Made by a program: the position numbers and the translations under genes. Below the pieces are notes generated by a model. The model was not told the origin of the DNA. It searched no databases and saw nothing but the letters and a program-made list of their open reading frames with translations. 62,008 bases of DNA, from IMG/VR virus record IMGVR_UViG_3300043419_000785, positions 1 through 62,008 of that record. One strand, written 5' to 3'. The DNA comes from a virus. Of the stretch, positions 1-54,500 are shown in pieces; position 1 is the first letter of the stretch, and the number at the start of each line of letters is the position of its first letter.

Positions 1-231
1 ATTTGTTTGTTTCGTGTTGGGTCTTGTGCACTTGCTTGTATTTCATTAATGATGCCGTTTTGTGTGCGCATCATTTGCCCTAGTTCTACAACTGACTGTG
101 CAATATGTGCCTCATAAGCATTGATGCCATACTCGTATTTAAATGGGTAGTTATTAATATCTGCGGTCATCACTGCATATGTCAGAGCCGTGACCATTTC
201 TTCTTCATGAGTCGTGTTAAGCCACACTCCA
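1..231. repeat. Left copy of the 231-bp terminal redundancy
   Basis: These bases match 61778-62008 except at position 111 (C here, A at 61888). On the minus strand this changes one codon of the giant gene from GAG (Glu) to GAT (Asp). The giant reading frame stays open and in phase when the two ends are joined, so the repeat is most simply the overlap of a circular or circularly permuted assembly. A true direct terminal repeat is possible, but its copies are normally identical. Confidence 0.95.
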
Positions 232-29637: not shown

Positions 29638-29665
29638 TTGACCTCGTAAGTAGGTATGCTATAAT
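29638..29665 (+). promoter_or_regulatory. Sigma-70-like promoter for the LuxR-type gene
   Basis: TTGACC (29638-29643), a 16-base spacer and TATAAT (29660-29665) preceded by TGC give a close match to an extended -10 promoter. It lies 44 bases upstream of the plus-strand regulator and overlaps the leader of the divergent late genes. Confidence 0.7.
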
Positions 29666-29708
29666 CTCCGATTAAACACATCTGGATTGTACATTACAGG
29701 AGCATTAT

Positions 29709-30008
29709 ATGGAAGAATCCCGTGAAGGCATGTACTTTGACGGCTTCACATGGCGTTCACATGATGAAACCCCTGCTGAGCGTGAGACACGTACGGACGT
29801 AGTCTACGACTTATCAGATCGAGAACGTGAAGTTCTAGGCATGATGCCTAGCAAGATGACTGCTAAGCAAATGGCTGCTTCCTTGGGGATTAGCCATAGG
29901 ACTGTTCAGTTCCACATGGACTCACTGTATTGGAAACTTGGATGCAGTGGTCGTGACGCTCGAACGCAAGCGTGTAACAAGGGGCGTAAATTAGGATATA
30001 TTAAATAG
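29709..30008 (+). CDS. LuxR/GerE-type DNA-binding regulator, 99 aa
   Basis: Residues 33-95 are a GerE-type helix-turn-helix: LSDREREVLGMMPSKMTAKQ, then MAASLGISHRTVQFHMDSLY with KLG after it. This is the classic LuxR output domain. There is no receiver or ligand domain, so activity may depend on amount or on a partner. It has its own promoter and terminator and points against all neighbouring genes. It sits exactly at the border of the late operon, so control of late or right-arm promoters is a reasonable inference. Confidence 0.8.
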   Translation: MEESREGMYFDGFTWRSHDETPAERETRTDVVYDLSDREREVLGMMPSKMTAKQMAASLGISHRTVQFHMDSLYWKLGCSGRDARTQACNKGRKLGYIK

Positions 30009-30067: not shown

Positions 30068-30460
30068 TTACGCAAACGGGTCTTCGATGTCGTCTGTTTG
30101 GATTGATGCCTGTGACGCACCACTTGGTTGTTGCGAAGCATCGCCCGAGCGTTCCTTGTACTCAAGAGGTGTCAGTTTATCCACCAAGATTTCAACTACC
30201 TTACGGTTTGTTCCATCCTTGGCTTGGTACTGCCGCATCTTCAGACTGCCAACGATGCCAACGAGCTGTCCCTTTTGAAGGTAGGTACATGCAAAGTCAG
30301 CATTCTTGCCGAAACATACAGCGTCAAAGAAGTCGGTTTCCTTCTCCCTCCCTTTTCGGTCTACAGCAATATTGAGTTTTGCTACGGCGGTAGCACCTGT
30401 TGTTTGTTTGTGTTCAGGAGCCGCACATAGTCTTCCGGTGAGTGTGACACAGTTAATCAT
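30068..30460 (-). CDS. ssb: Single-stranded DNA-binding protein, 130 aa
   Basis: The N-terminal 100 residues are an OB fold: MINCVTLTGRLCAAPEHKQT, AVAKLNIAVDR and FFDAVCFGKNADFACTYLQK match bacterial/phage SSB. A Gln/Ser-rich linker leads to an acidic tip, DDIEDPFA, which resembles the DDDIPF tail that recruits replication partners. It overlaps the upstream HTH gene by 8 bases. It would coat single strands for the DnaB replisome and recombination proteins. Confidence 0.9.
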   Translation of the reverse strand: MINCVTLTGRLCAAPEHKQTTGATAVAKLNIAVDRKGREKETDFFDAVCFGKNADFACTYLQKGQLVGIVGSLKMRQYQAKDGTNRKVVEILVDKLTPLEYKERSGDASQQPSGASQASIQTDDIEDPFA

Positions 30461-30761
30461 TTATCAGTTGGTCTTCTTTTGCCAGTGAATCAAGATGCGT
30501 TACGACGTATCGACAGACTGTATCTGTCTGCGTTCGACGCAACTCCAATGCAACGAATAGCCCTTGCATATAGTTCGGTTCCATTCCGAGCACTTCCGCA
30601 ATCTTCGGAACCATTGTCGCAATCGGCATACGCTTTCCGCTGAGCCATAGAGAAGCTGTTGATTCGTCAACTCCTACTTGCTCTGCAAACATACGTTGCG
30701 TCAAATTAGCCTTGTCGCACAAGTGGTGAAGCCTTGTGCGTTTTACGTGTGGTCTTGCCAT
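30453..30761 (-). CDS. XRE/Cro-like HTH regulator, 102 aa
   Basis: Residues 10-60 form a Cro/CI-type helix-turn-helix (LCDKANLTQRMFAEQVGVDE, then STASLWLSGKRMP). The C-terminal 40 residues are helical with no known ligand domain. It starts after GAAAGGTACAAC. A perfect 12-bp inverted repeat lies 17 bases upstream of its ATG and may be its own operator. It is cotranscribed with SSB. Confidence 0.75.
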   Translation of the reverse strand: MARPHVKRTRLHHLCDKANLTQRMFAEQVGVDESTASLWLSGKRMPIATMVPKIAEVLGMEPNYMQGLFVALELRRTQTDTVCRYVVTHLDSLAKEDQLIND

Positions 30762-34673: not shown

Positions 34674-34915
34674 GGTTTATTTTTGATAAGCACCGTGCGT
34701 AAAGCATCTTTGCGTTTTAGGTTGTCCATGGCGTAACTAACGGCGTAGATTAATTCAGTAAACTCTGGGTTGTTAATCCTGCCGACAACTTCCCTCTGCC
34801 CATCTCGATCATAGACTAACTCAATGTACGGTTCGTCTGGGTTATCTTTGAAATGCTTATGTATAGCGGTAACCGCTAGGTACATATCGTCTTCAGTTGA
34901 AATCTTAAAGGTCAT
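34670..34915 (-). CDS. Unrecognised small protein, 81 aa
   Basis: ATG 34915 (MTFKISTEDDMYLAVTAIHK) follows a perfect AAGGAGG site. The protein is alpha/beta-like with YIELVYDRDGQREVVGRIN in the middle. No motif is recognised. It is coupled to the Tad2-like gene (4-base overlap). Confidence 0.6.
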   Translation of the reverse strand: MTFKISTEDDMYLAVTAIHKHFKDNPDEPYIELVYDRDGQREVVGRINNPEFTELIYAVSYAMDNLKRKDALRTVLIKNKP

Positions 34916-35172
34916 TCCACTACCTCCTTTTTGTTGGAGACAACAATATGGTTTGCTTCGTCTTCCCACTCATCTACTTGCCAGTCATCAGCTGCTAGGT
35001 CAGATCCACGTAAAGGAGCAAGATGACACAAAACATGAAAGTCAAACTCTACTCTAGCTTCAGAAAACATATTCCAGTCATCTTCGTAGTATATAAAGTG
35101 ACCGTCTTGCCACCCTTTACGGTAGACAGGTAACCCACTCAGTAAGTCGTTCAGCACCTCAGCAAATGTCAT
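34912..35172 (-). CDS. DUF2829/Tad2-like protein, 86 aa
   Basis: ATG 35172 gives MTFAEVLNDLLSGLPVYRKG then W, and the C-terminus reads LRGSDLAADDWQVDEW. The combination of F-xx-A/V-L...G...V-R-GW at the start and D-L-A-A-DDW at the end is the DUF2829 pattern. Members of that family include Tad2, which sequesters the signal molecule of Thoeris anti-phage defence. The match is by motif only, and many DUF2829 proteins have not been tested. It lies in the leftward operon nearest the divergent promoter, as expected for an early anti-defence gene. Confidence 0.55.
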   Translation of the reverse strand: MTFAEVLNDLLSGLPVYRKGWQDGHFIYYEDDWNMFSEARVEFDFHVLCHLAPLRGSDLAADDWQVDEWEDEANHIVVSNKKEVVE

Positions 35173-35449
35173 TGGCTTGCGCTTCCTTTGCTTTGTACTT
35201 CTCAATGACAACACGGATAGCATTGTCACCCCAAGGCATAGTCATCGGAGGACTAGGCACACCCATATCGACTAACCACTGCGACATCTGCCGACGAGTC
35301 CTACCTTCCTTATACCAAAGCCAAATCACGTCCTGTATCTCCGCAGGTATATGATCTAGCAGGTACACCCGCTTTTTGGGCGGCTCACCTGTTGAATTTT
35401 TAGACCTGGCACGCACAGAGCCAATCGATCTCGCATTACTTAAACTCAT
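35159..35449 (-). CDS. Helix-turn-helix-like small protein, 96 aa
   Basis: ATG 35449 overlaps the upstream stop as ATGA. The centre reads IPAEIQDVIWLWYKEGRTRR, then QMSQWLVDMGV, a helix-turn-helix-like arrangement similar to resolvase/RNase-type DNA-binding ends. The N-terminus is Arg/Ser-rich. A DNA-binding role is inferred. The gene is the second in the leftward operon. Confidence 0.55.
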   Translation of the reverse strand: MSLSNARSIGSVRARSKNSTGEPPKKRVYLLDHIPAEIQDVIWLWYKEGRTRRQMSQWLVDMGVPSPPMTMPWGDNAIRVVIEKYKAKEAQANDIC

Positions 35450-35679: not shown

Positions 35680-35688
35680 ACAAATCTC

Positions 35689-35706
35689 CGCTAGTACTAT
35701 ACAATA
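35689..35706. promoter_or_regulatory. Leftward promoter with CGCTAGTA box
   Basis: On the minus strand a TATAGT -10-like hexamer lies over CGCTAGTACT (35689-35698, plus strand). That 10-mer also occurs in the conserved element at 38731. The box sits between the -10 and the ribosome site of the 35679 gene, where a repressor would bind. Confidence 0.45.
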
Positions 35707-35909
35707 TATTAATGACAGCACGCTAAAATGTTTTGTTGGATAAGCGAATCTACGTCGGTAGAGGGTAGTCGAAGAAAATATGTTCCGTAGGGGGCGGGGA
35801 GGATTATAGGAAAAAGGAGGGGCGGGGGCTTGCCATGTGGGGGTGGTTGACCCCGGGTGGGGGAGGGGGTAGGGGGCAGGGGAGGGGGTAATGCCGTAGC
35901 GTCATTCGT
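35707..35909. other. Divergent intergenic region with dense G-tracts
   Basis: No gene was found between 35680 and 36034. On the plus strand many runs of three or more G occur from about 35765. The run at 35855-35888 has six consecutive tracts separated by one or two bases (for example GGGGGAGGGGGTAGGGGG), a strong G-quadruplex candidate. It separates the two divergent early regions and may be a transcription or replication control site. Confidence 0.65.
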
Positions 35910-36018
35910 CCACGCTAGTACAGCGGAGATAGAGGGGCAGGGCCAACTACTTAACCCTCGCAGGTATGGGTGTGCTCTAGTTGGCTACACTGCGTCAAGT
36001 GTATATATATGATGTAAC
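35910..36018 (+). promoter_or_regulatory. Conserved cassette element R1
   Basis: First copy. It has CCACGCTAGTA at offset 0, a perfect 8-bp stem GCCAACTA (35942-35949)/TAGTTGGC (35978-35985), CCTCGCAGGTATGG in the loop, then TGTAT at offset 90 and TGTAAC at offset 103. A stem-loop follows: GTAAC (36014-36018)/GTTAC (36025-36029), with the AGGAGG site in the loop. Confidence 0.85.
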
Positions 36019-36034
36019 TAGGAGGTTACGAGTC

Positions 36035-36310
36035 ATGTTGCATGAGATATTCAGGGTCAAGGTCGCCAATCAGTTTGGCGACGTCGTCGTAGAAAAGCGT
36101 GTTGACTGGGTCGCGATGACAGACACCACTGACATGACATTCACAACCCGTGAGGTCACGGAGACACTTTGGTTGATTATGCCAAAGATGTGCAAGTGTG
36201 AATGGGACTTAGTCAAGGTAGGCGGGAACCGTCGTTTTCGCAAACTTTGGTTCGAGTCAATTGACGGGCGATATGTTCTATACATATCTGCCAGAAAGGA
36301 GCGGAAGTAA
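36035..36310 (+). CDS. Cassette 1 protein a, 91 aa, unrecognised
   Basis: ATG 36035 follows AGGAGG (36020-36025), which is held in the leader stem-loop; an upstream in-frame TTG lies inside the promoter element and is rejected. The protein (MLHEIFRVKVANQFGDVVVE) is alpha/beta-like with a basic C-terminus (YISARKERK). No family is recognised. The stop overlaps the next ATG (TAATG), so it is paired with a small membrane peptide. Confidence 0.7.
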   Translation: MLHEIFRVKVANQFGDVVVEKRVDWVAMTDTTDMTFTTREVTETLWLIMPKMCKCEWDLVKVGGNRRFRKLWFESIDGRYVLYISARKERK

Positions 36311-36399
36311 TGCGAGAGATTCGCTTTACGGTTGCACAGGTTATCGCCTGTGTAATCTTCTGCGGCGCTGTTGGCGCCCTCATCGTCTTAAACTTCTAG
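36310..36399 (+). CDS. Cassette 1 protein b, 29-aa single-pass membrane peptide
   Basis: This short gene starts at ATG 36310, coupled to the previous stop, with GGAGCGGAAG upstream. Residues 8-27 (AQVIACVIFCGAVGALIVLN) are one hydrophobic helix after a charged start (MREIRF). It ends 13 bases before a strong terminator. Function unknown. Confidence 0.6.
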   Translation: MREIRFTVAQVIACVIFCGAVGALIVLNF

Positions 36400-36411
36400 G
36401 GAAACCTAGAA

Positions 36412-36439
36412 AGGAGGGCTTCGGCCCTCCTCTTTTTTT
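36412..36439 (+). terminator. TTCG-loop terminator, cassette 1
   Basis: AGGAGGGC-TTCG-GCCCTCCT followed by a T-run. Confidence 0.9.
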
Positions 36440-36465
36440 GACCAAAAAAGCGGAGCATAACATAA

Positions 36466-36574
36466 CCACGCTAGTAATGCAGACTTGTCGACAGCGGACG
36501 AACTACATAAACCTCGCACGTATAGGTTGGCTTTAGTTGGCTGGACTGCGTCAAGTGTACTTATAAAGTGTATG
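36466..36574 (+). promoter_or_regulatory. Conserved cassette element R2
   Basis: CCACGCTAGTAATGC starts the element, TAGTTGG lies at offset 68, TGTAC at 90 and TGTATG at 103. A leader hairpin TGTA-GGC/GCC-TACA follows. The upstream GGAGCATAA box is present. Confidence 0.85.
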
Positions 36575-36613
36575 GCGATATTGCCTACAACGTAATCGAA
36601 CGGAGGTAATACC

Positions 36614-36814
36614 TTGACGTATTCCTACCGTATGAATGGTGCCTTGCGAGTGGAATTCACTTACAAGGGATACGACTGCGAGATAGAACTATCTCATGGT
36701 GGTATCACAACCCTTCATATCGACAGCCTTGGCTGTTTTGAGTTTGATAGTGATGTATGCACATTACATCATCTAACAAACTTTGCGGATGCCGTCATCC
36801 GCCAATCATCGTAG
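36614..36814 (+). CDS. Cassette 2 protein a, 66 aa
   Basis: A TTG start at 36614 is chosen because GGAGG (36602-36606) is spaced 7 bases from it. The product MTYSYRMNGALRVEFTYKGY is beta-rich, with acidic and His residues in the C-terminal half (CTLHHLTNF). Unrecognised. It is followed by a stem-loop and a membrane protein gene. Confidence 0.65.
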   Translation: MTYSYRMNGALRVEFTYKGYDCEIELSHGGITTLHIDSLGCFEFDSDVCTLHHLTNFADAVIRQSS

Positions 36815-36825
36815 TGTTTGTGATT

Positions 36826-36847
36826 GCCCCTCGGGAAACTGAGGGGC
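36826..36847 (+). other. Stem-loop in front of the cassette 2b ribosome site
   Basis: GCCCCTC-GGGAAACT-GAGGGGC ends one base before the GGAGG of the next gene. With no T-run it is more likely a translation or mRNA-stability element than a terminator. Confidence 0.55.
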
Positions 36848-36859
36848 GGAGGTTTCACC

Positions 36860-37042
36860 TTGAACAAAGGTTTATTGATGGGGCTTTTCGTCGTTGCAGT
36901 GATTCATACGGCTTTGTCGTTGCTGCTTGCTTTGGGTTTGCGGTCGTACTTTTGGTACGCTTCATTCCTAGCGACTGTGATTGTCGCTAACATCATCGGA
37001 CATCACCCTGCGGTTTACGCAGAGCTGACAAAGAAGGGTTGA
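36860..37042 (+). CDS. Cassette 2 protein b, two-helix membrane protein, 60 aa
   Basis: The TTG start at 36860 (MNKGLLMGLFVVAVIHTALS) is supported by GGAGG at 36848-36852. Two hydrophobic helices (about 4-25 and 29-46) surround a short RSYFW turn, with the tail HHPAVYAELTKKG. Unrecognised. It repeats the soluble-plus-membrane layout of cassettes 1 and 3. Confidence 0.65.
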   Translation: MNKGLLMGLFVVAVIHTALSLLLALGLRSYFWYASFLATVIVANIIGHHPAVYAELTKKG

Positions 37043-37047
37043 CCTTT

Positions 37048-37072
37048 GGAGGGCTTCGGCCCTCCTTTTTTT
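37048..37072 (+). terminator. TTCG-loop terminator, cassette 2
   Basis: GGAGGGC-TTCG-GCCCTCC then seven T. Confidence 0.9.
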
Positions 37073-37097
37073 CGACTTATGCGGGAGCATATGCACA

Positions 37098-37206
37098 CCA
37101 CGCTAGTAATGCAGAGTTAGTCAAGGAAGACGAACTACATACACCTCGTAGGTATGGATGTGCTTCGGTTGGCAGAATACCACGGTTTGTACTTACATAA
37201 TGTAAC
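37098..37206 (+). promoter_or_regulatory. Conserved cassette element R3
   Basis: CCACGCTAGTAATGC, CGGTTGG at offset 68, TGTAC at 90, TGTAAC at 103. The leader hairpin GTAAC/GTTA holds AAGGAGG in its loop. The GGGAGCATA box upstream forms ATGC-GGGA-GCAT. Confidence 0.85.
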
Positions 37207-37223
37207 CAAGGAGGTTATATACA

Positions 37224-37469
37224 ATGCGGTACTTTGAATTGTGTCGGGTTCGTGATGTGTCGCCGATGTCAACTGATGTCGAATATTCGGCACCATGTGT
37301 CATGTGTGGTGACAAGGTCAAGGTGGTCGTGTCTGAACAAGACCACGTGTCAATGCGGTGGGAAAACAGTATCCCGCAGCATCTCGAGATTTCATCTCGG
37401 GAATTCTTCATGTCGGGTATGTGCTCGGGATGTCAGGAGGATGTTTTCAGCGATGAAGACGAGGATTAG
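37224..37469 (+). CDS. Cassette 3 protein a, Cys-rich, 81 aa
   Basis: ATG 37224 follows AAGGAGG. The protein has two Cys pairs (APCVMCGDK and GMCSGCQED), so it probably binds zinc as a small ribbon, and an acidic tail FSDEDED. No named family. It overlaps the start of a membrane peptide gene. Confidence 0.7.
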   Translation: MRYFELCRVRDVSPMSTDVEYSAPCVMCGDKVKVVVSEQDHVSMRWENSIPQHLEISSREFFMSGMCSGCQEDVFSDEDED

Positions 37470-37569
37470 ACTTTGGGATGCCATGATGGTCGCCATCATG
37501 GTTTTCGTCGGGCTGGCGTGGATGTGGATGGTCGCCAATGGCGTCTATCTCGTCGACTTTGAATTCTGA
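37453..37569 (+). CDS. Cassette 3 protein b, 38-aa membrane peptide
   Basis: ATG 37453 lies inside the end of the previous gene, with GGAGG 12 bases upstream. MKTRIRLWDAMMVAIMVFVG then LAWMWMV is a basic start followed by one hydrophobic helix. It ends just before the terminator. Unrecognised. Confidence 0.55.
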   Translation: MKTRIRLWDAMMVAIMVFVGLAWMWMVANGVYLVDFEF

Positions 37570-37574
37570 ACTCA

Positions 37575-37598
37575 GGAGGCTTCGGCCTCCTTTTTTTT
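37575..37598 (+). terminator. TTCG-loop terminator, cassette 3
   Basis: GGAGGC-TTCG-GCCTCC then eight T. Confidence 0.9.
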
Positions 37599-37599
37599 G

Positions 37600-37620
37600 T
37601 GTGCCAAATCGGGAGCACAC
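37600..37620 (+). other. Post-terminator hairpin (example)
   Basis: GTGTGC and GCACAC flank CAAATCGGGA. Equivalent stems with other bases stand before other cassette elements, for example ATGC/GCAT before 37098 and GTGC/GCAC before 40470. Confidence 0.6.
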
Positions 37621-37625
37621 CACCA

Positions 37626-37734
37626 CCACGCTAGTAATGCCAATGTGACCAACCAGGACGAACTACATAAGCCTAGCAGGTATGGGTTGGTTATAGTTGG
37701 TGGTGCACGTGGAAGTGTACTTATTAGATGTAAG
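37626..37734 (+). promoter_or_regulatory. Conserved cassette element R4
   Basis: CCACGCTAGTAATGC, TAGTTGG at offset 68, TGTAC at 90, TGTAAG at 103. The leader stem switches to GTAAG (37730-37734)/CTTAC (37742-37746), a compensated change. Confidence 0.85.
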
Positions 37735-37765
37735 TGACGTACTTACAATGAAAGGTTTACTAATC

Positions 37766-37999
37766 ATGATTAGTATGACATTCGAGAAGTTTTGGGCGTA
37801 CGTGTCCCGATACATCTCAAACCGTATCGGCGTTGGATTGGACGACTTGGCTGATGTAGATATCTGGGATTATTACTCAGAGCATCCTGAGACCAAGGAG
37901 CATTGGCAAGGGGCTATTCGTGATGCAGCGGAGCACGCTATGTCTGAGCAGGACTGCGTAGACCCTGAAATCATGGCATTGTTCTCTACTCAGGACTAA
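37766..37999 (+). CDS. Cassette 4 protein, acidic, 77 aa
   Basis: ATG 37766 (MISMTFEKFWAYVSRYISNR) follows AAAGG; ATG 37748 is an alternative start. The protein is acidic and helical (EHPETKEHWQGAIRDAAEHA). Unrecognised; probably a cytoplasmic regulator or inhibitor by size. Confidence 0.6.
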   Translation: MISMTFEKFWAYVSRYISNRIGVGLDDLADVDIWDYYSEHPETKEHWQGAIRDAAEHAMSEQDCVDPEIMALFSTQD

Positions 38000-38012
38000 G
38001 ATATGCGGCCCG

Positions 38013-38044
38013 GGCTGACGTTCTCATGTGATACTCCGTCAGCC
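38013..38044 (+). other. Extra stem-loop after cassette 4
   Basis: GGCTGACG pairs with CGTCAGCC, ten bases before the main terminator. No T-run follows. Confidence 0.5.
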
Positions 38045-38053
38045 TTATACCGC

Positions 38054-38087
38054 AGAACCGGGGCTTCGGCTCCGGTTCTTTTTTTGG
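38054..38087 (+). terminator. TTCG-loop terminator, cassette 4
   Basis: AGAACCGGGGC-TTCG-GCTCCGGTTCT with a T-run. Confidence 0.9.
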
Positions 38088-38110
38088 CTGGTTGCCAAAC
38101 CACACACACA

Positions 38111-38219
38111 CCACGCTAGTATTGCCAATATCATCAAGCCAAACGAACTACATAGACCACGCAGGTATGGGTTGGTTATAGTTGGTGGTACGGCGACAAG
38201 TGTACTTATTATATGTAAG
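38111..38219 (+). promoter_or_regulatory. Conserved cassette element R5
   Basis: CCACGCTAGTATTGC, TAGTTGG at 68, TGTAC at 90, TGTAAG at 103. The leader stem GTAAG (38215-38219)/CTTAC (38229-38233) has GGAGG in the loop. Confidence 0.85.
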
Positions 38220-38237
38220 CGTTGGAGGCTTACTATC

Positions 38238-38675
38238 ATGTATCAAGTCAAACAACGTTCACCGTTCGGTGAAACGTACGTGCACGGGCAATTTATGTCG
38301 TTTAGCAATGCAATGCATTGCTGCCTTGCAGTCAATGATACCCGTAGCAGGGCATTCAAGGCGTATCCTGCCTACATTTTTGAATCGGTAACACAACGTG
38401 TTATCAAGCCATCACGACGCCCTGCATATTATTATGCAATCTTTGTGAATGAAGGGCATTATGCATACGGCGGTGCTGAAATATTCACAAGTGTAAAGGC
38501 TATCAAGGCCGAGTTATTTGAGCGATTGAATAATCAGCGGCGATACCCTTGCGTGGATAAGCGGGCAAGTTTTGAGGTCTACTACCTCAATCCTGATGAC
38601 CTTGATTACACTTGCCCTGATTTTCGTGTGCACTTCGGTAAACGCGGCGGCGTCAAAATAACAAAATATGTTTGA
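38238..38675 (+). CDS. Cassette 5 protein, 145 aa, unrecognised
   Basis: ATG 38238 (MYQVKQRSPFGETYVHGQFM) follows GGAGG in the leader hairpin. The protein is basic and rich in Tyr, with YYYAIFVNEGHYAYGGAEIF in the centre. No motif identifies it. It is the sole gene of its cassette. Confidence 0.65.
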   Translation: MYQVKQRSPFGETYVHGQFMSFSNAMHCCLAVNDTRSRAFKAYPAYIFESVTQRVIKPSRRPAYYYAIFVNEGHYAYGGAEIFTSVKAIKAELFERLNNQRRYPCVDKRASFEVYYLNPDDLDYTCPDFRVHFGKRGGVKITKYV

Positions 38676-38679
38676 CGCA

Positions 38680-38705
38680 GGGAGGCTTCGGCCTCCCTTT
38701 TTTTT
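38680..38705 (+). terminator. TTCG-loop terminator, cassette 5
   Basis: GGGAGGC-TTCG-GCCTCCC with a T-run. It is followed by the palindrome GTCAGCCTGGCTGAC. Confidence 0.9.
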
Positions 38706-38730
38706 GTCAGCCTGGCTGACCACACACACA

Positions 38731-38839
38731 CCACGCTAGTACTGCATATATAGACAACACGGACGAACTACACAATCCTCGCAGGTATGGGTCTGCTTTA
38801 GTTAGTGGTACGTGTGCGATTGTACTAAATAGATGTAAC
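38731..38839 (+). promoter_or_regulatory. Conserved cassette element R6
   Basis: CCACGCTAGTACTGC, TAGTTAG at 68, TGTAC at 90, TGTAAC at 103. Leader stem GTAAC (38835-38839)/GTTAC (38845-38849) with AGGAG as the loop. Confidence 0.85.
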
Positions 38840-38853
38840 AGGAGGTTACTAAC

Positions 38854-39087
38854 ATGGATTGGATTACAGGAGAGCTGTTCGCATGGTACGGCGACAGCAT
38901 GGTTTTGCAGGTAGAAGAATCACGGGAACCCGTAACGGCTGATTGGTGCCGTGATTTCGTATATGAAGACTTCGATTCCTGCGAATTGAAGGAAGGCACG
39001 GCACTACATAGCATCTTTAATCATTTGCTTTGGTACGCCGAGTGGGACAAATTGGCAGAACGTGTAAACGCAGTATTGGAGGATTAG
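38854..39087 (+). CDS. Cassette 6 protein a, acidic, 77 aa
   Basis: ATG 38854 (MDWITGELFAWYGDSMVLQV) follows GGAGG. The protein is acidic and rich in Trp/Phe. Unrecognised. A GGAGG within its last codons primes the adjacent gene. Confidence 0.65.
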   Translation: MDWITGELFAWYGDSMVLQVEESREPVTADWCRDFVYEDFDSCELKEGTALHSIFNHLLWYAEWDKLAERVNAVLED

Positions 39088-39405
39088 ATGGAAATTAGAC
39101 CAAGAGGTTTGGTGCGCCTTGATTGCATCGTTGTTACGGCAGTTAGTTTCATCGATTGGTTGGATTTATTGGTAGAGCTGAAAGAGATTACACCTCGCCA
39201 AGCAAAACTAATCGGCAAGCCAATTCGCCGCGAGATGCGAAAAACCGAGGGTAATTTCAAGTTATACGACATACGTGTATTGCTTGATGCAGGTTACGAG
39301 GGCGAGTGGTCGCCGGCGATTCATAATAACTGGCATCACTTAATCCAGTTATGCGCCAAAGACCTCAAGACATCGGAGGCGAATGACTTCTATGTGAGAG
39401 CATAG
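39088..39405 (+). CDS. Cassette 6 protein b, 105 aa
   Basis: ATG 39088 directly follows the previous stop, with GGAGG six bases before it. The product MEIRPRGLVRLDCIVVTAVS is an alpha/beta protein with a basic middle (KLIGKPIRREMRKTEG). Unrecognised. Confidence 0.65.
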   Translation: MEIRPRGLVRLDCIVVTAVSFIDWLDLLVELKEITPRQAKLIGKPIRREMRKTEGNFKLYDIRVLLDAGYEGEWSPAIHNNWHHLIQLCAKDLKTSEANDFYVRA

Positions 39406-39408
39406 ACC

Positions 39409-39435
39409 GGAGGGCGAAAGCCCTCCATTTTTTTT
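39409..39435 (+). terminator. GAAA-loop terminator, cassette 6
   Basis: GGAGGGC-GAAA-GCCCTCC then a T-run. Confidence 0.9.
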
Positions 39436-39461
39436 GTTCGGCGCGGCGGAGCACACAAGCA

Positions 39462-39570
39462 CCACGCTAGTAATGCCAACATAGTCAAAACAGACAAACT
39501 ACATCATCCTCGCAGGTATGGATTGGCTACGGTTGGCGATACCTCCGCATTTGTACCTTTATGATGTAAG
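39462..39570 (+). promoter_or_regulatory. Conserved cassette element R7
   Basis: CCACGCTAGTAATGC, CGGTTGG at 68, TGTAC at 90, TGTAAG at 103. Leader stem GTAAG (39566-39570)/CTTAC (39578-39582). Confidence 0.85.
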
Positions 39571-39608
39571 CATGGTGCTTACACTGTTATCGTTTGAAGG
39601 ATACTAGC

Positions 39609-40412
39609 ATGTTTACAAAGCATGGCATGTCTCGACATAACACGTTCCTGCTATGGGCAGGACCCTCTGCAATCGATGGTGCACCTATCGGTTTGTTTGT
39701 GTCAGGATTGGCGAATCGTTCGCGCAATCGTAAAACAGGTGCAATGATTCAAACGTACATCATGCGTTTGGATGTCGACCCTGTATTTGCAATCGCAAAT
39801 GGGTTGGATGGTAGCATCTGCGGCATCGGAAAGAATCGATGCCCACACATGATGCAGGAACGCCGCAACGGTAATCGTGTCAAAATGATGCGTACCTGCT
39901 ACGTCAATGTTGGGCAGGGTCCATTGACAATATGGCGTGCATGGGAACGTGGAAACGTACCGATGCCAGACGTCCACACGGTACAGCGTGCAATCGCGGC
40001 GACGGGTCGCCCATTGCGAATGGGTGCATATGGCGACCCTGCGGCGATACCTCAACACGTGTGGGAGAGCATCCTACCGTTTGCGACGGGTCGCACGGGT
40101 TACACCCATCAATGGAACAACAAGATAGGATGGTGGCTTAAAGGTACCGTCATGGCGTCATGTGACAGCCCAGACGACCACCACCGTGCTGTCAATGTAG
40201 GGTGGGGAACGTTTACCGTTCTTCCGCATGACAACTACAAACAGTTGTTCAAATCATTGACACGTACCACGTCGTGCGTGTCCGACCCACAATTCAAGGG
40301 TCGGATGGAATTGATACCGTGTGAACGGTGCCTAAAGTGTGATGGCACACGTAACGTAGCGATACGTGCCCACGGCCCGTCAGAAAAGTGGGTAACCTTA
40401 CCCACCATCTGA
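39609..40412 (+). CDS. Phage hypothetical family with Cys-cluster and CYVNVGQGP motif, 267 aa
   Basis: ATG 39609 (MFTKHGMSRHNTFLLWAGPS) follows GAAGGA. The motifs SRNRKTGAMIQTYIMRLDVD, CGIGKNRCPHM and CYVNVGQGPLTIWRAW occur in many phage proteins of unknown function (similar to what is catalogued as DUF7227). Further cysteines near the end (CERCLKC) suggest metal or Fe-S binding. It is the largest cassette gene and has no partner in its cassette. Confidence 0.6.
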   Translation: MFTKHGMSRHNTFLLWAGPSAIDGAPIGLFVSGLANRSRNRKTGAMIQTYIMRLDVDPVFAIANGLDGSICGIGKNRCPHMMQERRNGNRVKMMRTCYVNVGQGPLTIWRAWERGNVPMPDVHTVQRAIAATGRPLRMGAYGDPAAIPQHVWESILPFATGRTGYTHQWNNKIGWWLKGTVMASCDSPDDHHRAVNVGWGTFTVLPHDNYKQLFKSLTRTTSCVSDPQFKGRMELIPCERCLKCDGTRNVAIRAHGPSEKWVTLPTI

Positions 40413-40416
40413 CACA

Positions 40417-40442
40417 GGGAGGCGAAAGCCTCCCTCTTTTTT
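40417..40442 (+). terminator. GAAA-loop terminator, cassette 7
   Basis: GGGAGGC-GAAA-GCCTCCC then TCTTTTTT. A second stem GTGGGTAA/TTACCCAC lies at the end of the gene. Confidence 0.9.
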
Positions 40443-40469
40443 GTGCCAGCTGCCAGGAGCACAAACACA

Positions 40470-40578
40470 CCACGCTAGTATTGAAAAATAGGGCAGGAGC
40501 CACAATCTACACAATCCTCGCAGGTATGGGTTGGCTACAGTTGACCCGCCCGACAGATGTGTACTTATATATTGTTCA
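40470..40578 (+). promoter_or_regulatory. Conserved cassette element R8
   Basis: CCACGCTAGTATTG, CAGTTGAC at 68, TGTAC at 90. The leader hairpin TGTAG (40583-40587)/CTACA (40598-40602) is shifted downstream, so this copy is the least regular of the first eight. Confidence 0.75.
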
Positions 40579-40630
40579 AGGGTGTAGCGTACATTGACTA
40601 CATCACTTAGGACGTGTTGGAGAAACCACC

Positions 40631-41173
40631 ATGGACAATCAGTCCAAACGCATCGCAGACCTCGTCATCGAACTCATCGGAGCCATGAAGGTCGAACTGA
40701 CCCCGACTGGTTGCAAGGTTGAGGACATCCTCGGCTACATCGACGATGGCATCGCTCCTATCAAGCAGGAGTTTGTCGAGAACGTCTGCCGCATCGACAT
40801 CAACCACGACAACTACACTCTTGTGAACAACGAGCGTGTAGCCGACCTCACCGAGAAGGTAGACGAGGCAATCAACGACATCTCTTCGCTTGAGAGTCGT
40901 ATCGATGACCTCGAGTCCGACGACAAGGACATCGATGTCGAGGGTGAGATTGAGGCATTCCTTGACAACTACAAGGGGCAAAACCTCATCAGCTCTGCCG
41001 TGTCCGAAGCCATCGACAAGGACGAACTCATCGGCGACATCACCGATAGCGTCAAGGACGACATCGAATGGCTGCTCGATGACGACCAGTTCAGAACAAC
41101 GGTACGCCGTATTGTTCAGGAGGAGATCAAGAATGCATTGCAAGTCTTGGTCGCTCATTGGGAAGCCAATTGA
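40631..41173 (+). CDS. Cassette 8 protein, acidic coiled coil, 180 aa
   Basis: ATG 40631 follows GGAG. The protein is strongly acidic, with a likely coiled coil at about 70-100 (LTEKVDEAINDISSLESRID) and a second helical region to the end. It has no cysteine-rich or enzymatic motif. Such acidic helical proteins often mimic or bind host proteins, but this is only a guess. Confidence 0.65.
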   Translation: MDNQSKRIADLVIELIGAMKVELTPTGCKVEDILGYIDDGIAPIKQEFVENVCRIDINHDNYTLVNNERVADLTEKVDEAINDISSLESRIDDLESDDKDIDVEGEIEAFLDNYKGQNLISSAVSEAIDKDELIGDITDSVKDDIEWLLDDDQFRTTVRRIVQEEIKNALQVLVAHWEAN

Positions 41174-41177
41174 GTTG

Positions 41178-41208
41178 GGTGGGGGGCTTCGGCTCCCTGC
41201 CTTTTTTT
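41178..41208 (+). terminator. TTCG-loop terminator, cassette 8
   Basis: An imperfect G-rich stem around GGGGGGC-TTCG-GCTCCC, then seven T. Confidence 0.75.
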
Positions 41209-41234
41209 GTGTGCAGATTGGGAGCACAACACAC

Positions 41235-41343
41235 CCACGCTAGTATTGCCAACATAGACAGCCCCCACAATCTATATCGCCCACGCAGGTACCGTTCGCA
41301 TTCGGTCTGCCAGATTGTGGCACGTGTACAATTACTTTGCAGG
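41235..41343 (+). promoter_or_regulatory. Conserved cassette element R9
   Basis: CCACGCTAGTATTGCC at offset 0 and TGTAC at offset 90 are kept. The internal stem is changed to CCACAATCT (41265-41273)/AGATTGTGG (41312-41320), nine perfect pairs. It drives a six-gene operon rather than one cassette. Confidence 0.8.
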
Positions 41344-41624
41344 TGGTGTGGTATGCAGATTCTGCACCCTCCCCTGTGACGTTACGACACGGAGGGGGTC
41401 GATTTCTGCACCCCTCCCGTAGGCACGTAGGAGCCTCATACACGGACTCTACAAGAGTTCCAATATAGATGTATCAAAACAGGGGTTTCCTGTCTATTTC
41501 GTCCATATTTTCGCCTCTGGGCACAAGTTTGCTTGTCACAGATGTGGTGTATGTGAGCGATAGTGTCTTGTGTTGTGTTGTCTGGCTGTGTTCTTGTTTG
41601 ATTTGATTCTACGGAGGTTTGAGA
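41344..41624 (+). promoter_or_regulatory. Long leader with initiator-type iterons
   Basis: No confident gene lies here. Two inverted copies of the origin iteron are present: 41361-41374 (14 bases identical to those at 48517-48530) and 41398-41418. Short stems ACAGG/CCTGT and ACAAG/CTTGT follow near 41480-41540, and GGAGG before ATG 41625. It is probably the place where the initiator represses the operon, or a second origin. Confidence 0.6.
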
Positions 41625-42080
41625 ATGTCAGATTATTTGAATGGTGACCGTCCCGTCCTTATCGCAGAGGGACATCGTTTGGTTGAGGGTGTTCGTGTGA
41701 TGTTGTCACAAGGCGTCCCTGTGTGGCATGGTCAACTCTGGCTTGGCTTGTCCAAGTGGGGTATTGACGCACAGATGGTCGAGGACTTGTTCGAGCATCA
41801 TTACAACGAGGTGTCCGAGGAGGATGCAGAGGATGGTGCATTGACGAGCATGCCGCGGTGCATGCCGTTTGGTGAGTACCTTCGTATCCTTGCGGATGTG
41901 ATTGGTTTGGATGTTGTGATTGGTGATGTATGGGACTACGTGCATGGTCACGTTGACGCATGCGACGACCTTGGTGAGAATTACGACTACGCATTCACGT
42001 GGTTGCTCAACGAACTGGGTACGTTGCTTCCTGAGTTTGACGACCATCTGTTGTTGATGGAATTGGAGGTGGTTGCATGA
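41625..42080 (+). CDS. Unrecognised acidic protein, 151 aa
   Basis: ATG 41625 follows GGAGG. MSDYLNGDRPVLIAEGHRLV begins an acidic protein with Asp/Glu clusters and no known motif. It is the first gene of a six-gene operon ending at 43958. Confidence 0.6.
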   Translation: MSDYLNGDRPVLIAEGHRLVEGVRVMLSQGVPVWHGQLWLGLSKWGIDAQMVEDLFEHHYNEVSEEDAEDGALTSMPRCMPFGEYLRILADVIGLDVVIGDVWDYVHGHVDACDDLGENYDYAFTWLLNELGTLLPEFDDHLLLMELEVVA

Positions 42081-43960: not shown

Positions 43961-43987
43961 AGAGGGGCGAAAGCCCCTCTTTTTTTT
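43961..43987 (+). terminator. GAAA-loop terminator of the six-gene operon
   Basis: AGAGGGGC-GAAA-GCCCCTCT then seven T. Confidence 0.9.
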
Positions 43988-44009
43988 GGTTGTCAAAAGC
44001 ATCACACAC

Positions 44010-44040
44010 ACCCGCAGGTACAGCTCTGATTCTAGTTGCC
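44010..44040 (+). promoter_or_regulatory. Degenerate tenth cassette element
   Basis: CCGCAGGTA and TAGTTG are kept at nearly the usual spacing, but CCACGCTAG and the leader stem are missing. It may be a decayed copy. Confidence 0.4.
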
Positions 44041-44116
44041 GGCTGTTGCAGTTGTGTGGTTTAGTGCAAGATTGTGTTTTGGACACAACAAGTCATTTGA
44101 TTGAAGGAGTAAAGGA

Positions 44117-46427: not shown

Positions 46428-47047
46428 AGATAGAAGACCATCTCATTAAGATGAAAGGGGGCAAGCTTTATGCCCCCGTGTATGTTCGCATCGCATTGTT
46501 TCGTGAAGACCATCCAGTCGCTGACGGATGGGGCATCAATGCTGAGGTCATCAGCACTGATGAAACATCGTGCTTGTCACGTGCTGAGATTGTTGACCCA
46601 CAAGGTCGTGTCGTAGCAACTGGACACAAGCGTGAGCACAAGTCGCACTTCCCAGACTTTGAAGAGAAGAGTCTCACAGGCGCGGTTGGTCGTGCCCTGC
46701 TTATGGCTGGCTACGGCACACAGTACGCTCTTGACGAGTTGGACGAAGGAGAACGCATTGTGGATACACCTATCCCAGCACCAGCACAGGTAAAGGCACA
46801 GCCTACTGTGGAGAAGGCACCAAACCCATTCATTCAGCAGTGCCGGCGCCTATGGGGCGTTGACATCACCACCGAGGATTGCAAGGCAATCTTCACACGA
46901 GCCTGGCCAACAAGCACGGCAAATGCGGAGTCACTTGCAGCCGCAGCAACAGTACTTGGAAGTTATGCCGATGCAGAGGAAGCAGAGGCTGACTTGTTCA
47001 TGGAGAACGCACCTGAAATGGGGCAAGCCCCGGGAGTAACATCATAA
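46424..47047 (+). CDS. Possible Rad52-like single-strand annealing protein, 207 aa
   Basis: Residues 15-110 contain YAPVYVRIALFREDHPVADG, then EIVDPQGRVVATGHKREH and EEKSLTGAVGRALLMAGYGT. This arrangement resembles the core of Rad52-like and related phage annealing proteins, and the C-terminal third is a separate acidic helical part. The neighbours (VRR-NUC, Gp157-like) support a recombination role. The family call needs a profile search. Confidence 0.45.
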   Translation: MKIEDHLIKMKGGKLYAPVYVRIALFREDHPVADGWGINAEVISTDETSCLSRAEIVDPQGRVVATGHKREHKSHFPDFEEKSLTGAVGRALLMAGYGTQYALDELDEGERIVDTPIPAPAQVKAQPTVEKAPNPFIQQCRRLWGVDITTEDCKAIFTRAWPTSTANAESLAAAATVLGSYADAEEAEADLFMENAPEMGQAPGVTS

Positions 47048-47622
47048 TGGCAACTGTAGTTGAAGACGATTGGATTATCGACACCGAAACAGGTGAGGTA
47101 ATCGGTATTGAGGGATGGCAAATCGAAGGCGCTGTGGAGTCCGAAAAGGAACTCTGGACTCTACAAAAGCGGATGCTTGAGACAGACGCTAAGATTTCCG
47201 CCGAACGCATGATGATGAAGTCCATCATCGCCAACTGCGAACAGCGCATCAAACGCCTTGAGTCACGCCAGAAGTGGCTCGATCTCCGCTACGGCGTCAG
47301 TGCAGCTGCAACAGCGAAGTCATTGTTGCTTAAGGGTAGCAAGACTTACACGTCTCCGTACGGAAAGATTGCATTCCGCACGACAAAGGACAAGATTGTC
47401 ATTGATGACCAAGAGGCGTTCTCCAAGTGGGCATCACAGCATTGCCCTGAAGCACTCAAGCAATCTGTTTTGGTCAGCAAGTTGCCAAAGGAGCAGGTTG
47501 ACCGATGGTTGAACATCGAAGAGTTCATGCCAAAGGGAATACACATTGAACCCGGTGGCGAGTCTGTAACATTTGTTGGCATCACAAAGGATGAACCAAA
47601 TGAGCGACCTGAACAAGATTAG
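47047..47622 (+). CDS. Siphovirus Gp157-like protein, 191 aa
   Basis: A long N-terminal coiled coil (residues about 32-80) is followed by SPYGKIAFRTTKDKIVIDDQ and a C-terminal domain, the layout of Gp157-type phage proteins. The family is usually beside annealing proteins, as here, and is poorly understood. The start shares the A of the previous TAA (TAATG). Confidence 0.65.
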   Translation: MATVVEDDWIIDTETGEVIGIEGWQIEGAVESEKELWTLQKRMLETDAKISAERMMMKSIIANCEQRIKRLESRQKWLDLRYGVSAAATAKSLLLKGSKTYTSPYGKIAFRTTKDKIVIDDQEAFSKWASQHCPEALKQSVLVSKLPKEQVDRWLNIEEFMPKGIHIEPGGESVTFVGITKDEPNERPEQD

Positions 47623-51552: not shown

Positions 51553-54500
51553 CTAATACTTTCCGGTCATTGTCTTGTTCACGATACCGATTGCTGCATC
51601 CTTAGCATCTGGATATTTCTTGTTAGATTTAGCAATGACATCCATGATGGTAGGTGCGGTCTGCCAGTTCTTCTCATGCTGTCGGATGATTTTCTCACGC
51701 TTCATGAGCGACTTCGGAATGTATTTGTCGTATTGCAAGCGTGTACCAAGTGTACTTGCTATAGCTTGCGTAAGGATAGCTGCTTCACGAACACCTTTAT
51801 CTTCGTACTTGGACTCGAATGTTGTGTCGACAACTTCATTGAGTCCTGTCGGGAATGTTGACGTGATGTACTGCGACATATTCCACTTCTCAGGTGCAAA
51901 TGCAACTGCTGGCTTAATTTTTCTGTCATACAGATACCTCCATTCCTCGTCAGTTTCGTACACTGATCTACCGATGACATCCTTGCCAGACAGTGGTTCA
52001 AATATCATCTTGATAAGTGCAGGGCTGACGTTATAACCAAGCCTATTGCTTGCTCCAATCAGCCAGTCTAGTTCAGGCGTGTCACCAAACCGTTCTTCTG
52101 ACTTGATTGGTTTGTTCACAGCATCGTATACGGTACGCAGTTTATTGAGGTCGTCCCATACGCCGCTACTGTCAGCGTATACCCAGTCACCTATGCGGAA
52201 CTTACCAACCTTTGTTGGGTCAGCCTTGACGTCTTCTCGTTTGAACAGCAGTTGCCCCAAGTAATGGACAGCTGCTTGAGCTGCCGCAACCCAAATCATA
52301 GACCCGTATATAACGCTGTACTGATAGTTGCGTAAGTCTGGGTTAGTTTGATTTGACGCAACAGCATTGAATACACGGTTTTGCTCACCAAGCAACTTAC
52401 GTGTGATTCTCATGTTGCCAAACAAGTAGTTCCAGTGTGGTTTCATCAGCCAGTTTGCTAGTTGCCACCGAGGTGCAACAGACACCCACTTAGCTGCACG
52501 ACCCACAACCATGTCGATGTCTTCATTGGTTGAGTACTGGAAGTCACCCAAGCTAAGAGCCACGAAGTTAGCGACCTCTTTGGCTGACCGTTGATACTTC
52601 AAGTCTTTGAGAGGAACGTCTTTCAACAATGGGTTGTTTTTCAACTGCCACTTCACCAAGTTGAACATAAGTACATCGTGGTTCAAAGACGTAAACCGTT
52701 CAGCCATACCTGCAACAGGCAGCTTGTTAACCATTGCGTCTTTGACCATGTCTTGCTGTACGTGCCCGACTTCACTGATTTGCATGAGGTCAACGTAAAT
52801 GTCTTGCCAGTTCGTCTTCCCCTTACCTTCTTGGTACATACGTTGCCGTGCTTTACCTACAGCACGTTCATAGTTATAGAAGTTTAGTGGAACACCAAGT
52901 TCCTTCATGACCTCGTAGTATGGGTCATTACTAATCTCCAAGAACAGCTTGATGTATTCACGGCGCCCCATGTGTGCACCAATTTGCTTGCCCTTTTCAC
53001 CTGTGAATGCAAGTCTTGGGGCAAGCCCCTTAGCTGCACTCTTGAATGCGTTGAGCCAGATTACGGTGTCGTATGGACGGCCTGTGAATATACCCATGGC
53101 ATACTTGCCACCCTGGATAACTGGGTACGCTAAGTCCATTGCGAGGCTTAGACGTGTCAAGCCCTGCCATTCACGTTCAAGCCTGTCTAATCCCTCAAGT
53201 GCTTGCATACCCATAGTTTTATTGGCTTTGACTTGACCCGCTGTAATAGTTAGCGGCGGAGCAGCTTCTTTACCTTGATACATAATTGGCGACATGGCTG
53301 GCATGCTAGGTGCTTCGTCCAATGGCATGTCTGCTGTGTACTCATTGATGACCTTTGCTGTTGGCTTTACAGCGGAATCAGCTGCCGTACCAAGCATATT
53401 GGATGCAGTTCTGACGTTGGCGTCATTGAGTGTGTATGCAACTGCTGTTGTTTCGGGCGTTGTCGATGTTTGTACAACATTAGTGAACACGACACCGTCA
53501 TGCTTCCCGCTCATAGCCGCCTTGATTGCATCGTTACGCATTGGAACACTCAAACCAGTGTTGCCGGCGTCAATCACCAATGGGTTTTCCATCTTGATGA
53601 ACCGTGGTTGTTGCATACGGTTTTTCTTGACATGGCTACCAGTGACAAGATCGTGGACTTGTATGCCTGGAGTTGTGTCATATAGTGTTCCGTCAACCTC
53701 TGGGCTAAATGCCAACGTGGTAAATGCAGACCCTGTTACAATCTTCTGTTCAGCCTGTAATTGACTATCGTAAACCTTTGCCATCTTTGCAATGTCTGCT
53801 GACATAAAGCGTTCGATGTATCGATCTACCTCCATCATGATTGGAGCAACGTCCTCACCTTTTTGTGTCAACTTGTCGAATGATCGATCAAGTTGTGCAT
53901 CGTTTAAGTGGGAGCCTAGTGTTTCACCATAGAGTCTCTTTGCGTTCTGATATGTTTCCTCGGTTGGTTCCGTGCTGTGGAACTTCAACGTTTGTCGTAG
54001 CTTCATAGCATCGAATACACGCAACGCCTTGAACTGCTCTGCACTTACTTGTGGATTAATAGTCAACCCGTTGCCGGCAGACATGGACTCTAAGTTGTCA
54101 AGCATTGTTCCGGTAGCCCATGACTTAAATGAGGGGTGTTCCGTCAATGCGTAAATTTCAAGTGCCTTGTTACGTCCTAGTCCAGATTCAACAAGGTTTC
54201 GGTAGATGTGACTACGATTACCATCTTCACGGTACACGGAGTAGCCGAACTCATCACGACCAACCTCATTGTTGTGGTTCAGGACAACACGTTGGCGACG
54301 GTCAATGGAAGGTTGTAGCCACTTACTGATTACTGGATTAACAAATGCGCGCCGTACACCTGGGTCGATGGTTCCGTATTCCATGTCAACCTTGGCTGGT
54401 GACATTGCTGGTTGCGTGTACATCTCAGTGCTTGGGCCAAAGTCTTCAGGACGCCGCATATTGGCGATACCGTGCCAATACACCGCAGGTACTGCCTTAG

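Follow-up and report, generated by a model that had tools for sequence, protein, structure and literature searches.

What is the element that recurs ahead of one small gene cassette after another between positions 35,896 and 41,342 of IMG/VR virus record IMGVR_UViG_3300043419_000785, and what does its rigid internal spacing reflect? The DNA analysed, here called the window, is the entire record of 62,008 bp. The element occurs nine times in this array, and we propose, with a probability of about 0.72, that it would be a phage-controlled, activated promoter that uses the host polymerase and serves a host-takeover locus of interchangeable cassettes. This proposal is drawn from sequence comparison and builds on the anatomy of the element, the hairpin that follows it, and the turnover of the genes behind it.

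Anatomy of the element

Nine copies of CCACGCTAGTA are present in the window, all on the + strand and none on the - strand. Numbered from the first base of this motif, the nine elements align without gaps from -14 to +106, which bears out the copy number, positions and absence of indels described in a first, sequence-only reading of the locus. That reading had also delimited a rigid 108-bp element; the rigid repeated block stands, with its length corrected to about 120 bp since GGAGCACA is conserved as well, at -14 to -7. A sequence model recovered all nine elements (weakest E = 8e-24). Their positions, and those of a reduced tenth element further downstream, are as follows.

35896..36016, + strand: element 1, with box A at 35910-35920, box C at 35956-35966, box D at 35978-35984 and TGTAT at 36000-36004; hairpin GTAAC-TAGGAG-GTTAC after it
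36452..36572, + strand: element 2; hairpin TGTATGGC..GCCTACA after it
37084..37204, + strand: element 3; hairpin GTAACC-AAGGA-GGTTAT after it
37612..37732, + strand: element 4; hairpin GTAAGT..ACTTAC after it
38097..38217, + strand: element 5; hairpin GTAAGC-GTTGGAG-GCTTAC after it
38717..38837, + strand: element 6; hairpin GTAAC-AGGAG-GTTAC after it
39448..39568, + strand: element 7; hairpin GTAAGCA-TGG-TGCTTAC after it
40456..40576, + strand: element 8; longer 5' hairpin after it, GTTCAAG..CTTAGGAC, identified by eye
41221..41341, + strand: element 9, ahead of an operon that starts at 41625, with a leader of about 280 nt
44000..44090, + strand: tenth, reduced element, consisting of CACACACA, box C only (44009-44020) and the hairpin TTGTGTTTTGGACACAA (44072-44088)

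Conservation within the block is confined to discrete boxes. Box A (CCACGCTAGTA, consensus CCMCGCWRGTA) lies at 0, box B (CGAACTACAT, consensus CGAWCTACA) at +33 and box C (CCTCGCAGGTATGG) at +46, the motif of box C being identical to that of box A, so that the two form a direct repeat 46 bp apart. Box D, TAGTTGG, follows at +68, near the putative -35 position, and a TATA block at about +96 (+96 to +99). The earlier description of TGTAC at +90 in all nine copies (TGTAT in copy 1) and of box D in eight was confirmed, with TGTA at +90 in 9/9 copies and GTT at +70 in 8/9. The same reading had postulated constraint along the whole element, which does not hold: +15 to +31 and +75 to +89 are low in information, nearly free in sequence and fixed only in length, and the length between boxes A and B varies in relatives. 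Since these spacers keep their length but not their letters, the rigidity appears to concern the distances between separate sites, probably protein-binding boxes.

In related contigs the boxes keep their order with altered letters, box A reading CCCCGCAAGTA or CCCCGCTGGTA, box B CGATCTACA, box C CACGTAAGTAT and box D AATAGGCG. Across the copies of the window and these contigs the A-B gap is 20-24 nt, varying by 1-2 nt in relatives. The B-C gap is 5 nt in every copy found; this value was preset in the main pattern search, and a looser search allowing 3-7 nt likewise returned only 5 nt. A degenerate three-box pattern gave 6 matches in the window compared to 0.00 in 100 shuffles, which excludes chance.

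In the elements of L139, L148, L154, L144 and L158, the 4-6 nt that precede the CG in box B and in box C are alike. This likeness (e.g. GGCCCACG...GGCCCACG) is greater within than across elements, with p-values, inflated by orthologous elements, of 0.0002 in clade II and 0.02 in clade III, and no such effect in clade I. The leader of element 9 (41342-41625) contains TGCAGATTCTGCACCCTCCCC, a repeat that is found twice in the relative G002 and in a related form in G005.

The 5' hairpin and the predicted transcript start

Directly after the TATA block, starting at about +101 to +104 of the element (about +101 to +103 in most), a hairpin of at least 5 bp was found at a near-constant offset in 46/62 elements, whereas shuffled sequences gave 15.6 on average and 23 at most. 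Its arms occur in 23 distinct complementary versions (GTAAC/GTTAC, GTAGC/GCTAC, TCGCT/GGCGA, GATGC/GCATC, TGAGC/GCTCA and others), its loops span 3-8 nt, and the core of the Shine-Dalgarno (SD) sequence lies in or beside the loop in 33. Several elements outside the 46 carry longer hairpins by visual reading, while in two hairpin-less elements the SD sequence itself begins near +106. Arms that change in sequence yet stay complementary, together with loops of varying size, are the pattern of an RNA hairpin and not of an operator, so transcription should start no later than about +104 of the element.

The position of this hairpin bears on a very unlikely alternative, namely that the element is itself transcribed and acts as an RNA leader or riboregulator controlling each cassette. 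The block is long, intergenic and conserved in position, as a leader might be, and individual copies show a degree of fold stability (element 4, z -2.9), but fold energies are ordinary in most copies, RNAalifold gave -1.2 kcal/mol with no compensatory pair, and there is scant space for a promoter between the preceding terminator and box A. Neither single folds nor RNAalifold yielded a conserved RNA fold upstream of the hairpin, and Rfam 15 contained no match near gathering score for the element. Because the transcript 5' end would be marked by the hairpin downstream of the element, and the sole covarying hairpin begins at about +101 to +104, the element is better explained as a DNA promoter than as RNA.

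Further structural candidates were discarded. All-against-all column pairing and region-to-region duplex tests, like the single folds and RNAalifold, gave nothing consistent. Inverted repeats flanking box A, which looked good by eye, were not clearly above swapped controls (p = 0.019, clade III only) and mostly reflect CA-rich versus GT-rich composition. A stem joining +13-26 to +61-75 is seen in copies 4 and 7 but does not form in copies 1-3.

A second alternative concerns the polymerase: the core from +88 to +105 could serve as promoter for a single-subunit RNA polymerase, encoded by the phage or carried in the virion. The TATA block lies 2-5 bp before the predicted start, and one encoded protein, about 4,800 aa long, is of unknown function, both of which would suit such an enzyme. 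No RNA polymerase family match was found in the giant protein or elsewhere in the genome, however (a search of 8 genomes for the T7-type polymerase, PF00940, gave no match, but its control was silent too), and boxes A-D, which reach up to 105 bp upstream, would be left unexplained. We regard this explanation as improbable. Boxes A-C, at 45-105 bp upstream of the predicted start, support the earlier suggestion that the element is more than a plain promoter.

Cassettes behind the elements

Eight cassettes, each of one or two small genes, occupy the array. Terminators with TTCG- or GAAA-capped stems had been described at the end of each, and all eight were located and are strong; each of elements 2-9 thus has a terminator directly upstream, and genes preceded by SD sites lie directly downstream.

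36035..36400, + strand: cassette 1, a 91-aa gene and a 29-aa putative membrane peptide (36311-36400)
36614..37042, + strand: cassette 2, 66-aa and 59/60-aa (36863-37042) genes; ratio of nonsynonymous to synonymous polymorphism (pN/pS) 0.21 and 0.36 versus G002
37224..37569, + strand: cassette 3, an 81-aa gene (CxxC..CxxC), pN/pS 0.19, and a 37/38-aa putative membrane peptide (37456-37569)
37757..37999, + strand: cassette 4, a gene of 77-80 aa; pN/pS 0.33
38238..38675, + strand: cassette 5, a 145-aa gene of family F1, which occurs in other clades too at other array positions; pN/pS 0.19
38854..39405, + strand: cassette 6, 77-aa and 105-aa genes; pN/pS 0.20 and 0.48
39609..40412, + strand: cassette 7, a 267-aa gene, phrog_2554 (unknown function); pN/pS 0.10
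40631..41173, + strand: cassette 8, a 180-aa gene; pN/pS 0.49
36412..36438, then 37048, 37574, 38054, 38679, 39409, 40416 and 41177, + strand: cassette terminators, each a capped stem with a T run
43961, + strand: terminator of the operon behind element 9, the ninth of the same kind

The genes behind the elements are real and under purifying selection, as pN/pS was 0.03-0.66 in all orthologous cassette-gene comparisons made. The ninth element had been read as driving an operon; an operon does run from 41625 to the terminator at 43961, but this element is not the last, as the reduced tenth lies between that terminator and a further operon from 44248.

The second genes of cassettes 1-3 (29-60 aa) each resemble a single membrane span. 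The cassette 7 gene has homologs in 147 records of cultured phages, whose hosts include Mycobacterium, Klebsiella, Gordonia, Microcystis and Roseobacter. In two clade II arrays the opening cassette codes for an HD-domain protein (L148:15582-16309; PF01966, 34.6 bits).

Copies spread along an early region could also be iterons, or an origin or packaging signal, an explanation that we consider most improbable. Although the copies are direct repeats in a one-orientation array, and five genomes have a G-rich tract before element 1, a 5' hairpin, an SD site and a gene come after nearly every copy, all but the first are preceded by a terminator, and the spacing of the copies is set by gene length.

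Distribution and cassette turnover

In IMG/VR, 194 loci encode relatives of the window's terminase. When the degenerate A-B-C pattern was searched over the database (2.9 million viral contigs), eight contigs matched, all of this terminase family at 82% identity or more, and a broader model run on 50 records of the family found full elements in the same eight contigs only. Each of these carries one same-strand array with up to 9-10 copies. Relatives at the 75% level show at most single box-C-like matches; in those without the three-box element the motif is enriched on one strand, with 6-9 matches per 14-20 kb against about 0.5 expected from base frequency, and is often fused to a -10 (TATAATACTTGCGTG, TATACTTGCGTG). 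A 14-base pattern, CCACGCTAGTANTGC, gave 33 IMG/VR stretches and was set aside, the single match per contig outside 3300013126_000037 being taken as chance.

Comparison of these arrays, based on a map in which a further element inside the clade II "cassette 2" is counted, shows how the cassettes turn over. The eight cassettes of the window are collinear with those of its closest relative, G002. Between clades only three gene families are shared (145-aa, 267-aa and 77-aa), at other array positions, and most genes are clade-specific. In G006 compared to G004, two neighbouring cassettes stand in swapped order with their elements included, each gene's element being closest to its homolog's element (88% and 82%, the latter only one point above the next best). 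In cassette 2 of the same two genomes the elements are 94-95% identical while the downstream genes are unrelated, and the first approximately 25 nt of the G004 leader are common with C8113, whose element differs. The junction in G004 thus appears to coincide with the 3' end of the element, at the predicted RNA start, and element and gene would here differ in ancestry. The unit of exchange is usually element, gene or genes and terminator together. The sequence-only reading had envisaged a promoter platform on which cassettes are swapped between constant elements; turnover is evident, but the elements are not constant, since each usually moves with its gene. Nor do relatives lose the elements while keeping gene order, which would have spoken against the platform: the elements are kept, and it is the genes that change.

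The exchange of cassettes, the breakpoint at an element's 3' end and the swapped pair would also be expected if the elements were site-specific recombination sites in an integron-like array, their promoter features being secondary. Tyrosine recombinases or integrases (PF00589) were found in 0/8 genomes searched, with the control positive in 14/14, though, and the array is strictly one-oriented with boxes at promoter distances before a 5' hairpin. Homologous recombination within repeated promoters would suffice, and we give this alternative little credence.

Candidate regulators

If the elements are activated promoters, a phage protein should read boxes A and C. The features that bear on its identity are listed below.

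29709..30008, + strand: solitary GerE/LuxR-type helix-turn-helix (HTH) protein, 99 aa (PF00196, E 3.6e-13, 49.4 bits, cut-off 23.5)
29641..29667, + strand: copy of the box C motif (CCTCGTAAGTA) immediately before TATAAT, preceding the GerE/LuxR-type gene
30453..30761, - strand: XRE/CII-type HTH protein, 102 aa, second candidate, in element-bearing genomes
35686..35702, - strand: site resembling box A and fused to a leftward -10 (TATAGTACTAGCGG, read on the - strand), preceding the leftward gene 35446

The GerE/LuxR-type protein was found in 15/16 genomes searched, being marginal in G014, which is motif-less, and its recognition helix (SHRTVQFH or PRTVQFH) is kept in all motif-bearing genomes aligned. 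It is likewise present, with the helix conserved, in the more distant motif-enriched relatives where these were aligned. Because of this co-occurrence, the conserved helix and the motif before its own TATAAT, it is the likely and preferred candidate for the regulator of boxes A and C. The XRE/CII-type protein has a weak match in G014, and its helix differs between clades. The fusion of motif and -10 at the leftward promoter facing the array is present in the window and in 3/4 relatives, and is degenerate in G002.

Proposed mechanism

We suggest that each element acts as a DNA promoter whose activator region extends far upstream; boxes A and C would be two copies of one recognition motif (CNCGYWRGTA) and box B a related third site. 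A phage protein, most likely the GerE-type protein (29709) and possibly also the XRE-type protein (30453), would bind these boxes at about -105, -70 and -57 and recruit host RNA polymerase, which would contact box D at about -35 and the TATA block. The RNA would start between about +101 and +107 and open with the 5' hairpin, often with the SD sequence in its loop, which may protect the message and present the SD sequence. One or two small genes would then be read up to the terminator, making each cassette autonomous and co-regulated. All cassettes could be activated together, and with the motif lying over the divergent leftward -10 or start, the same regulator could switch the two directions oppositely. 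Cassettes would be exchanged by recombination, at least sometimes within or at the end of the conserved elements, so that the repeated promoters may offer a place for homologous recombination to exchange genes with regulation intact. The anatomy, conservation and spacing of the element, the 5' hairpin, the turnover of the genes and the purifying selection on them are observed, whereas promoter activity, the identity of the regulator, the timing of expression and the use of host RNA polymerase are what we infer in this scheme.

Several observations weigh against it. The TATA block (+96 to +99) is nearer the predicted start than in a usual sigma-70 promoter, and a scan for the sigma-70 consensus gave no hexamer pair at the putative -35/-10 of the elements. 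The GerE-type protein is also encoded by relatives that lack the three-box element, and so cannot be the only factor, while the co-occurrence of the XRE-type protein with the elements comes from one clade and is not independent evidence.

A more far-reaching version, which is possible but on balance doubtful, is that the GerE-like protein reads a fixed-geometry three-site enhancer-promoter in nine or ten copies, which would both co-regulate and physically maintain slots for interchangeable takeover genes, with the divergent leftward genes under opposite control. The locus would then be analogous to an integron that works without an integrase, within a phage-wide regulatory system of a kind so far undescribed.

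Genome context

The ends of the record overlap by 231 bp (1-231 versus 61778-62008) at 99.6% identity, so the window is very likely a complete circular map. It belongs to an uncultured phage, probably of freshwater origin, and encodes head genes of podovirus type (terminase phrog_38, portal phrog_156, major head protein phrog_212). No relative was found when GTDB genomes were searched for the host by terminase, and a host search by tRNA found no tRNA. The array sits between leftward genes and a rightward replication operon (VRR-NUC, O-like initiator, DnaB). On its left flank, the gene at 34912-35229 resembles Tad2-like (Thoeris anti-defence 2-like) proteins (PF11195, 28.1 bits, cut-off 25), and the replication operon has a weak Mu Gam-like match at 47047-47622 (PF07352, below cut-off). 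The circular junction falls within the gene of the giant protein (about 4,800 aa, family unknown; 3-4250 and 51553-62004, - strand). The strongly G-rich tract, GGGGGAGGGGG, precedes element 1 at 35780-35900 in place of a terminator, likewise in four relatives, and the same-species contig G001 ends abruptly at the matching position.

Relation to known systems

Arrays of short monocistronic takeover genes, repeated start-associated elements and morons are already known, and the locus comes closest to SPO1-type takeover modules and morons. In the SPO1 takeover region and at 202-208 kb of 0305phi8-36, small, apparently monocistronic genes each apparently have their own promoter, and the phage-specific promoter motif of 0305phi8-36 is 21 bp (PMC2147016). 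The present locus resembles an SPO1-type takeover module in its eight cassettes of one or two genes with terminators and predicted promoters. It differs from 0305phi8-36 in the length of the element (about 120 bp), its three spaced upstream boxes, its uniform architecture and the exchange of cassettes between relatives.

The start-associated sequence (SAS) of cluster K mycobacteriophages is 13 bp long, lies 3-7 bp before the start codon and has been proposed to act in translation, and its extended form (ESAS) adds 17-bp inverted repeats (PMC3203893). Like these, the elements are numerous, one-oriented, lineage-specific and placed ahead of non-structural genes of varied families, but the conserved block here ends upstream of the predicted transcript start; it holds no GGGATAGGAGCCC within 3-7 bp of a start codon and lies farther upstream.

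Morons are genes that transfer singly, each together with a promoter and a terminator of its own (PMC2147016). The cassettes share this composition, with a putative promoter, and are sporadic among relatives, but eight or nine stand in tandem at a fixed locus under one apparently phage-specific regulated promoter. In the p4/p6 switch of phi29, p4 bound upstream activates a promoter with a poor -35, its sites overlapping other promoters repress them, there is one late promoter, and the p4 sites are inverted repeats with A-tracts (PMC3100819). Here the motif lies upstream of the putative rightward promoters and, in 4/5 genomes, over the leftward -10, where the regulator is predicted to bind, but the promoters would number nine or ten and the candidate is of GerE type, which p4 is not. 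Bacillus GerE, a chromosomal sporulation regulator, is a solitary LuxR-type HTH protein of small size with both activated and repressed target genes (PMC5595907). The candidate at 29709 is likewise small and solitary, though its binding motif and polymerase holoenzyme may differ. Unlike in an integron, no tyrosine integrase was found beside the array in the 8 genomes searched. The DNA of the array has no match in any cultured phage apart from two that cover the coding part of one cassette gene, and, as far as our searches show, neither a long promoter with three sites, nor the use of one for every cassette, nor the exchange seen at its boundary has been described.

The locus would offer a clear natural case in which a phage lineage holds on to one control circuit while exchanging small genes that are probably used against hosts. 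The elements provide a search handle, the genes downstream of them being good candidates for takeover or counter-defence functions, and whether repeated promoters act as recombination sites for the exchange of early genes becomes testable.

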